A DNA stretch of 64,000 nucleotides from Elusimicrobia bacterium HGW-Elusimicrobia-3 (lineage in GTDB: Bacteria; Elusimicrobiota; Elusimicrobia; Elusimicrobiales; UBA9959): assembly GCA_002840355.1 (NCBI GenBank), contig PHAL01000004.1, forward strand, positions 1-64,000, written 5' to 3'. A program made the translations under genes and the position numbers. The first letter of the stretch is position 1, and every line of letters starts with the position of its first letter. The notes below the pieces were generated by a model. It was not told the origin of the DNA, ran no database searches, and was given only the letters and a program-made list of their open reading frames with translations. Below, piece by piece: positions 45,590 through 58,951 of this stretch.

Positions 45590-45599
<10 letters not shown>
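45048..45599 (+). CDS. hpt: Hypoxanthine phosphoribosyltransferase
   Basis: 183 residues. The PRPP motif is VIVVEDIVDSGLTMEYML, and the purine side includes LVGVLKGCLLFMSDLA and DKFVVGYGLDYNGIYRNLPY. It salvages hypoxanthine and guanine. No Shine-Dalgarno sequence is seen, consistent with a leaderless message. It overlaps ftsH by 10 bases. The hpt-ftsH pairing is common in bacteria. Confidence 0.95.
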
Positions 45600-47410
<1,811 letters not shown>

Positions 47411-48258: not shown

Positions 48259-48357
48259 ATGAACATACCCGAACTTTTTACCCGCAACTGGCAGATAAAA
48301 GTGCTGTCCCTCATCATAGCGCTGCTGATCTGGTATTTCATCACCGGCGGCGCATAG
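48259..48357 (+). CDS. 32-residue membrane protein, CdaR (YbbR) anchor remnant
   Basis: A short ORF that starts 3 bp after the cdaA stop. Its sequence, NWQIKVLSLIIALLIWYFIT in the middle, matches the N-terminal membrane helix of CdaR/YbbR proteins (the W.LK.LSL..A..LW pattern). All YbbR domains are missing: a TAG stop comes directly after the helix and no remnant follows. The remaining piece could still regulate CdaA in the membrane, or be a leftover from domain loss. A perfect hairpin lies 27 bases later. Confidence 0.7.
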   Translation: MNIPELFTRNWQIKVLSLIIALLIWYFITGGA

Positions 48358-48384: not shown

Positions 48385-48414
48385 AGGCCCTAAAACCCCC
48401 GTTTTAGGGCCTTT
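48385..48414 (+). terminator. Hairpin after the cdaA operon, terminator-like
   Basis: A 12-bp perfect stem AGGCCCTAAAAC / GTTTTAGGGCCT with a CCCC loop. The following TTGGACTCTT is weak as a U-tract, so termination is probable but not certain. Confidence 0.65.
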
Positions 48415-48468: not shown

Positions 48469-49575
48469 ATGTTTAAAACCTCGGTATTCTTCGCCTCTCT
48501 TCTCTCGGTACTTCCCTTCTTAAGCGCCGCCGCCGGCGAGCTGCGGCTGCCCGCGGCCCCCGCTTCGGTGGAAGTGCCGGCAGCCAGCCCCGCCGACATG
48601 GACACCATCGGCCTGGTCCTGGATTACGACGAAGTCTACGCCGCGCTTAAATTCTACTCGGACATAGTTTTCGTCTCCCCGCAGGGCAGCCCCCAGTACC
48701 TCGAAGCCGCCGCCGCCGGCCAGTACCTGCGCGCCAGGCTGGAGTCCCTCGGCCGAGCCATAGAGACCGCGACCGGCAGGCCGTTTAGCGGCGCTACCAG
48801 GACGCGCGCCCGGGTCTCTTTCCGCATTTCCTCCGAGCTGGGCGACGTTTTCGGTTTCCACGGCGGCACCGCGGTGCGCGAGACCCGCAGCGTGCCCATC
48901 AAGGACGGCTACTGCAAGATCAACTATGTCAAGAACAACGTGCCCTTCCTGGTGCAGTCCGACTCGTTCCTCAAGAAGGGCGAAGTCATCCTCACTTTCG
49001 ACGACGGCCCCGGCCCGCTGACCGAGGAAGTTTCCGCCTCGATGAAAGAGGGGAACGCCCCTTCCGTGTTCTTCGTGCTGGGCTCCAAGCTGGGCGCCGC
49101 CGGCAGGGCGCGCGTGGCCAAAGCGGCCGCCGACGGCCACGAGATAGCCGTGCACGGCTACTGGCACGCCACCGAGAACGGCAAGCCTTTTACCAATATG
49201 ACCACCGGCAAGATCGTGGAGCAGCTGGGCGGCGTGAAGTCCTCCATCGCCGCCGCCGCCGGCCGCAAACCGGTCTTCTTCCGCCCGCCCTACGGCATCA
49301 TAACCCCCGACGCGCTCCTAGCGCTGGATTCGGAACTTAACCTCGTGCCGGTAGGCTGGACCATAGACACGCTGGACTGGTCCACCAAGAACCCCGACGA
49401 GCTTTTCGAGAAGACCATCGCCCTGATAAAACAGCGCGGCAAAGGCATAGTGCTGATGCACGACATACACGACCAGAGCCGCCTGGCCTCCAAGCGCCTG
49501 GTGAGCTGGCTGTCCGACAACGGCTACACCGTGGTCTCACCCGAGAGGATGACCAAAGCCTACCGCGGCGAGTAA
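48469..49575 (+). CDS. Secreted polysaccharide deacetylase (NodB fold)
   Basis: 368 residues. A signal peptide (1-22) precedes a helical N-terminal half of about 150 residues. The NodB catalytic half has ILTFDDGPGP, the metal-binding HEIAVHGYWH, FFRPPYG and VLMHDIHD. It would deacetylate N-acetylglucosamine in peptidoglycan or another polysaccharide outside the membrane. AGGAGAATCTA precedes the ATG, and an AT-rich ATAATATATATA lies upstream as a likely -10. Confidence 0.9.
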   Translation: MFKTSVFFASLLSVLPFLSAAAGELRLPAAPASVEVPAASPADMDTIGLVLDYDEVYAALKFYSDIVFVSPQGSPQYLEAAAAGQYLRARLESLGRAIETATGRPFSGATRTRARVSFRISSELGDVFGFHGGTAVRETRSVPIKDGYCKINYVKNNVPFLVQSDSFLKKGEVILTFDDGPGPLTEEVSASMKEGNAPSVFFVLGSKLGAAGRARVAKAAADGHEIAVHGYWHATENGKPFTNMTTGKIVEQLGGVKSSIAAAAGRKPVFFRPPYGIITPDALLALDSELNLVPVGWTIDTLDWSTKNPDELFEKTIALIKQRGKGIVLMHDIHDQSRLASKRLVSWLSDNGYTVVSPERMTKAYRGE

Positions 49576-57583: not shown

Positions 57584-58951
57584 ATGGGCAAACTTTTTGG
57601 CACTGACGGCATACGCGGCATCACCTGGGATTATCCCTTTACACCCGATTTCATTCGCAAAATAGGCTACGCGGCCTCCCTTGTGCTGCCTAAGTACAAG
57701 AAGAAGGGGCATGCCGGCAAGCCGGTGGTGCTCATAGGCATGGATTCCCGCGCCTCCGGCCGGCTGATAAAGAAGTACCTGGTGGAAGGCCTGGGCGCGA
57801 GCAAGTTCAAGGTCATAGACCTGGGCATCATCCCCACGCCGGCCGTCTCGTACCTGGTCAAGCGCGAGAACGCCGACTTCGGCATAGTGATCTCCGCCAG
57901 CCACAACCCGCCGGAGTTCAACGGCATCAAGTTCTTCTCCAGCGACGGCCTCAAGCTCAACGACGCCATCGAGAACAAGATAGAGAAGCTGCTGCTCGGT
58001 AAGGAGCCGCTCAAGTTCCGCCCGTCGCATCCCGGCCTGCACAAGAAAGATTTCACGCGCGACTACGAGGATTTCCTCAAGTGCACGCTGCCCCCGGGCT
58101 TCAACCTGAAGGGGCTGAAGATCCTGCTCGACTGCGCCAACGGCGCCGCCTACAAGATAGCCCCTCGCGTGTTCCGCGACCTGGGCGCCAAGGTGAAGGT
58201 GATAGGCGACAAGCCCAACGGCAAGAATATCAACATGGGCTGCGGCGCCCTGCATACCGAAAAGATGGCCGCCGCCGCCGCTAAATGGGGCGCTTTCTGC
58301 GGCATCAGCTTCGACGGCGACGCCGACCGCTGCATGTTCGCCGACGAGAAGGGCGCGCAGCTGGACGGGGACGACGTGATAGCGATGGCCGCCCCTTACA
58401 TGAAGCAGCGCGGCCGCCTCACCAATAACGGCGTCTCGCTCACCTTCATGTCCAACTGCGGCCTGCTGAAATACCTGCGCGACCAGGGCATCAGCGTGGC
58501 CGAAGTCCCGGTGGGCGACAAGAACGTCACCGACGCGATGGAGAAGGGCGACCTGAAGCTGGGCGGCGAGACCAGCGGCCATATCATTTTCCGCGAGTTC
58601 GCCCCCACGGGCGACGGCATACTCACCTCGCTGCAGACGCTGGCCGCCGTGCTGGACATGGGCAAGCCTTTCAGCTGGTTCGGCCGCCACTGGAGCCGCT
58701 ACCCGCAGGTGGTGGAGAAGGTGAAGGTGTCGAGCAAGCCCGATTTCAAGGCGGTGCCCGGCTTCAGCGAGAAGCTTTCGAAGCTGGAAGGCGGCCTGAA
58801 GGGCAACGGCCGCATCTTCATCCGCTATTCCGGCACCGAGCCGCTGCTGCGCCTGCTGGTGGAAGGCGAGAGCCGCGGCAAGATAAAGGCCATCGCCGAC
58901 GACCTGCTTGAGCATTACCGCAAGCATTCCGGCGCCGTGGCCGCGCGCTGA
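57584..58951 (+). CDS. glmM: Phosphoglucosamine mutase
   Basis: 455 residues. KLFGTDGIRG, the phospho-Ser region ISASHNPPEFNGIKFF, metal loop FDGDADR, substrate loop GGETSGH and C-terminal RYSGTEPLLR give the alpha-phosphohexomutase set, with GlmM-type start. It turns glucosamine-6-phosphate into glucosamine-1-phosphate for peptidoglycan. Its partner gene glmS lies two genes on. Confidence 0.96.
   Translation: MGKLFGTDGIRGITWDYPFTPDFIRKIGYAASLVLPKYKKKGHAGKPVVLIGMDSRASGRLIKKYLVEGLGASKFKVIDLGIIPTPAVSYLVKRENADFGIVISASHNPPEFNGIKFFSSDGLKLNDAIENKIEKLLLGKEPLKFRPSHPGLHKKDFTRDYEDFLKCTLPPGFNLKGLKILLDCANGAAYKIAPRVFRDLGAKVKVIGDKPNGKNINMGCGALHTEKMAAAAAKWGAFCGISFDGDADRCMFADEKGAQLDGDDVIAMAAPYMKQRGRLTNNGVSLTFMSNCGLLKYLRDQGISVAEVPVGDKNVTDAMEKGDLKLGGETSGHIIFREFAPTGDGILTSLQTLAAVLDMGKPFSWFGRHWSRYPQVVEKVKVSSKPDFKAVPGFSEKLSKLEGGLKGNGRIFIRYSGTEPLLRLLVEGESRGKIKAIADDLLEHYRKHSGAVAAR

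Follow-up and report, generated by a model that had tools for sequence, protein, structure and literature searches.

CdaR, the YbbR-domain protein that regulates the membrane diadenylate cyclase CdaA, contacts its partner through membrane segments (PMC10243994; PMC6368335), and in some streptococci the two proteins also occur as CdaA-CdaR fusions (PMC10243994). CdaR has been reported both to activate and to repress, and its mode of control over CdaA is described as unknown (PMC8573169). Text searches of open-licence papers returned no account of a CdaR reduced to its membrane helix, nor of c-di-AMP regulators in Elusimicrobiota. Small membrane microproteins that act on large partners are familiar from other systems, such as AcrZ and MgtS of E. 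coli.

The locus considered here lies in the window, a stretch of 64,000 nt from Elusimicrobia bacterium HGW-Elusimicrobia-3 (Table 1). Two bases after the stop of cdaA, a short ORF begins that runs from ATG to TAG (translation MNIPELFTRNWQIKVLSLIIALLIWYFITGGA), and a sequence-only reading had taken this 32-residue gene to be a match to the N-terminal helix of CdaR. The product of cdaA itself matches Pfam DAC (E 1.4e-39), CdaA_N (E 1.1e-6), and TIGR00159 (E 4.4e-66, above the cut-off of that family); judged from these matches, it is a normal enzyme with membrane and DAC domains.

Table 1. Features at and around the microprotein ORF (window positions)
Feature	Position	Strand	Description
ftsH	45590..47410	+	upstream of cdaA; Pfam Peptidase_M41, E 8.9e-69
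cdaA	47426..48256	+	membrane diadenylate cyclase with CdaA_N (membrane) and DAC domains; TTG start per ORF finder
micro-CdaR	48259..48357	+	32 aa, TAG included; matches CdaR N-terminal membrane helix only
helix core NWQIKVLSLIIALLIWYFIT	48286..48345	+	N, K, A and W positions common to full-length CdaRs (alignments and column counts)
12-bp hairpin	48385..48412	+	28 nt after the micro-CdaR stop; short U tract
polysaccharide deacetylase gene	48469..49575	+	next gene after micro-CdaR; Pfam Polysacc_deac_1, E 7.7e-22; no YbbR
glmM-like gene	57584..58951	+	ORF with motif FGTDGIRG; 9 kb downstream of micro-CdaR

Likeness of the short ORF to the CdaR helix

Profile comparisons were made in both directions. 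An HMM built from the N-termini of 24 full-length CdaRs, all from other phyla, had micro-CdaR as its single significant match (E 4.6e-4) when the 1,403 six-frame peptides of the window were searched, the next match being at E 1.9, and consequently the likeness is beyond what chance would give. In the reverse direction, an HMM made only from Elusimicrobiota microproteins was run against 10,333 peptides of outgroup loci and gave its best scores to CdaR N-termini, with the first non-CdaR match at E 0.56; the match at locus L159 is a 445-aa CdaR. Aligned N, K, A/S, and W positions are common to the microproteins and the full-length CdaRs, and in Bacillota, Nitrospirota, Acidobacteriota, and Deltaproteobacteria the same slot after cdaA is occupied by full CdaRs that carry this helix. 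These reciprocal tests and the alignment establish homology between the 32-aa ORF and the N-terminal membrane helix of CdaR (YbbR), as the sequence-only reading had proposed.

That reading had also held that the YbbR domains are gone, with nothing left of them before the next gene, and this is borne out. PF07949 (YbbR) has no match in the whole 2.88-Mb assembly, no YbbR domain lies 3' of the micro-CdaR stop in the window, and readthrough of that stop would meet the next one after 11 codons. Having no PF07949 match, the ORF is not filed as a YbbR-domain protein; Pfam and NCBIfam assign it no family, and an Rfam scan of the region gave no match. The further claim that the gene is shorter than most gene finders accept has to be narrowed. 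At 99 nt, the ORF is near common gene-finder minima, the default of Prodigal being 90 nt, rather than clearly under them; some relatives, of 24-28 aa, are indeed too short.

The microproteins carry positive charge at the N-terminus (mean net charge +4.2), then a single helix and a tail of some 6 residues, and because of these features the topology is probably N-in/C-out, following the positive-inside rule. Downstream, the hairpin region (-24.6 kcal/mol for a 56-nt stretch, z -4.5) probably marks the end of the cdaA-microprotein transcript; the hairpin was not listed by a simple terminator scan.

Distribution, fusions, and selection in Elusimicrobiota

In a survey of 150 Elusimicrobiota genomes, DAC was found in 98 and YbbR in 3. 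Three of the 98 hold only decayed cdaA remnants together with a decaying microORF and were set aside, leaving 95 with intact cdaA. The free microprotein is present in 78 of these, directly after cdaA, and spans 14 families and 39 genera, with lengths of 24-50 aa (median 32). A further genome (G008) has it relocated directly upstream of glmM, away from cdaA; in 10 the helix is present as a C-terminal extension of CdaA itself, and 6 have none. The gene following the free microprotein is glmM in 51 of the 78, which is the Firmicutes order cdaA-cdaR-glmM, but not in the window's family. The sequence-only reading had taken a full YbbR gene in relatives as the mark of a recent truncation or sequencing stop. 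Such a gene was looked for in this slot of the relatives and not found; in its place stood the same short helix ORF, ending a few residues past the helix.

Across the phylum, the helix accompanies CdaA in 89 of 95 genomes, compared with 1 of 52 genomes without DAC (Fisher p 1.6e-31, to be read only as a guide because related genomes are not independent). The lone DAC-less genome with a helix, G131, is explained by its contig, which ends at or just before the ORF start. CdaA is kept without any helix in 6 genomes, namely all five of family f17 (loci L008, L009, L030, L064, L073) and G061, the sixth locus being L048; in family f17, the next gene after cdaA encodes a gyrB-like topoisomerase subunit. 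Family f2, whose members are order-mates with mostly small genomes (~1.2-1.8 Mb), has neither CdaA nor the microprotein, and DAC-dependent production of c-di-AMP seems to have been lost there. In three small genomes of family f10 (G106, G110, G114; L100-L102), cdaA is decaying and the microORF is decaying alongside it. One YbbR match, in G009, lies inside a large unrelated ORF of 898 aa and was rejected as a CdaR; the other matches in the phylum, in G089 and G004, are both divergent CdaA fusions.

By a tree of CdaA, fusion of the microprotein to the cyclase took place independently in G086/G112 and in G017. The CdaAs of another, divergent clade (support 1.0) likewise end in the helix, with YbbR present in G089 and G004 and absent in family f7. 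Thus, a helix without YbbR is found in two separate CdaA lineages of the phylum. In the divergent clade (L050-L056, L058), the gene for CdaA with its C-terminal helix, in two cases with YbbR as well, is followed by one for a DHH-type phosphoesterase, and the two are possibly a cyclase/hydrolase pair. An AlphaFold model of the natural fusion in G017 gave the C-terminal helix a pLDDT of only ~63-77 and carried no information on helix contacts; the model and a PDB fold search alike showed the known cyclase fold only and nothing on helix contact.

The short ORF behaves as a coding sequence. Its dN/dS is 0.09-0.21 in six groups, compared with 0.10-0.16 for cdaA, so that purifying selection on the two genes is about equally strong. 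In the window's genus, nucleotide identity drops from 0.79 within the ORF to 0.27 in the 99 nt past the stop, and the variable columns lie mostly at third codon positions (8/4/23). SD-like motifs precede 49 of the 78 microprotein starts, with 18.9 expected, and the ORF is found in all three frames relative to cdaA at gaps of -28 to +107 nt, a 4-nt overlap being the most common arrangement (37 of 78). Given the motifs and the use of all three frames, the microprotein would have its own start codon rather than arise by frameshifting, and these patterns point to its translation. Within the Elusimicrobiota set, conservation on one face of the helix falls short of significance (p 0.11); helix-face periodicity is significant in full CdaRs and in Margulisbacteria, but the anchoring step is biased towards K, A, and W, and the periodicity is consequently not main evidence.

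Taken together, the genomes surveyed indicate that the reduction of CdaR to its helix is phylum-wide and old in Elusimicrobiota. That a single conserved helix is what remains of CdaR suggests that this helix suffices for the essential action of CdaR on CdaA.

Proposed role and its alternatives

The explanation that we regard as likely is that micro-CdaR is a real, old gene for a minimal CdaR, one that has lost its YbbR domains, has kept the membrane anchor helix, and acts on CdaA. In this model, a single-pass N-in/C-out helix would be made from the cdaA operon and would pack on the membrane helices of CdaA. There it would determine how stable CdaA is, which oligomer it forms, or how active it is at the basal level, as the anchor of a full-length CdaR would, and it would do so without an outside sensor, as a constitutive membrane subunit of the cyclase. 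Physical contact with CdaA and an effect on its activity are predictions from comparative genomics; continued action of the helix on the enzyme is supported by purifying selection, co-occurrence with CdaA, retention of the cdaA-cdaR-glmM slot, and the recurrent CdaA fusions. Counting against the model are the six genomes in which CdaA has no helix, the non-significant one-face conservation, the modest pLDDT of the helix in the G017 fusion, and a similar microprotein located away from cdaA in Margulisbacteria (see below).

Seen in one genome alone, the ORF would look like the product of a recent truncation, a pseudogene, or a sequencing or assembly stop in a full-length cdaR, since it is the short form of a longer known protein. 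However, purifying selection maintains the same short ORF in 78 genomes from 14 families, no YbbR follows it, and conservation ends at its stop. The recent-truncation and sequencing-stop readings were rejected because relatives carry the same ORF, and this whole class of explanation is barely credible. Convergence of an unrelated small membrane protein on the CdaR helix is highly improbable. Short hydrophobic helices do converge easily, and neither Pfam nor NCBIfam gives the ORF a family, but the reciprocal profile matches stand above a clean background, the operon slot is the same, and two members of the phylum carry CdaA-helix-YbbR fusions. Only marginally better odds attach to a translational device, that is, a coupling ORF, a leader, or a frameshift-made extension of CdaA whose sequence matters little as a free protein. 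The prevalence of the 4-nt overlap with cdaA and the fused forms would fit such a device, whereas the three frames, the wide range of gaps, the SD-like motifs, the strong selection at the amino-acid level, and the one copy located away from cdaA speak against it.

The remaining alternative concerns the partner, and here other phyla must be considered. The same helix profile has matches in 70 Acidobacteriota, 41 Zixibacteria phylum, and 62 Nitrospirota genomes, and 171 of these 173 matches lie in frames of at least 142 aa; the two exceptions are short and come from Nitrospirota, one lying at the end of its contig. In Margulisbacteria, all 49 matches fall within stop-to-stop frames of 31-139 aa. 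None of the 74 Margulisbacteria genomes has YbbR and 62 have DAC, with no significant association between the microprotein and DAC (p 0.32). At the 39 loci read (L210-L248), the CdaR-like one-helix microprotein is nearly always just before panC, away from cdaA, and the upstream gene is topA wherever it was read. Margulisbacterial cdaA, for its part, is often directly followed by panB (L185, L251, L256, and others), so that panB and panC each carry one half of a possible CdaA/CdaR pair. The Margulisbacteria microprotein either represents a further reduction of CdaR, this one unlinked to cdaA, or is a related helix that serves a different partner, and its position away from cdaA makes CdaA somewhat less certain as the partner.

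It is this distribution that lends some weight to the idea that the microprotein is real and derived from CdaR but works mainly with a membrane or cell-wall protein other than CdaA, for instance in the recruitment of GlmM. The usual next gene is glmM, and the copy in G008 left cdaA yet stayed directly upstream of glmM. Nevertheless, glmM is not adjacent in the window's family, the microprotein vanishes with CdaA in Elusimicrobiota, at least two fusions of it to CdaA have arisen, and the published contacts of CdaR are with the membrane domain of CdaA (PMC10243994). We consider a different main partner unlikely, although less so than any of the preceding alternatives, and retain a minimal CdaR acting on CdaA as the preferred explanation. 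A bolder proposal extends it: the core function of CdaR would be carried by the membrane helix alone, with the YbbR domains as additions that can be dispensed with, and CdaR would have been cut down to a one-helix subunit of CdaA independently in at least two phyla, Elusimicrobiota and Margulisbacteria (in the latter without linkage to cdaA). This is offered tentatively, at somewhat less than even odds.

Comparison with known regulators

Like CdaR/YbbR of Firmicutes, the microprotein is encoded directly after cdaA and often before glmM, shares the N, K, A/S, W helix pattern, and, inside Elusimicrobiota, is found only with CdaA. It differs in being 24-50 aa long rather than ~210-450 and in having no YbbR domain, and hence nothing outside the membrane to sense a signal. 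A helix-only CdaR thus separates two possible roles of the regulator, contact through the membrane helix and extracellular sensing, and it offers a 32-residue system for testing the control of CdaA. In addition, the microproteins make up a conserved gene family that goes unrecognised by Pfam and NCBIfam.

The fusions in G086, G112, G017, and the divergent clade, in which the helix is joined to CdaA, resemble the CdaA-CdaR fusions of streptococci (PMC10243994). The latter, however, are described as large proteins made of CdaA plus CdaR, whereas most Elusimicrobiota fusions carry the helix only. Finally, micro-CdaR resembles the small membrane proteins represented by AcrZ and MgtS in being one short helix with a presumed modulating effect on a larger membrane partner. 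Unlike members of that class, it derives from a known multi-domain regulator by the loss of every soluble domain.
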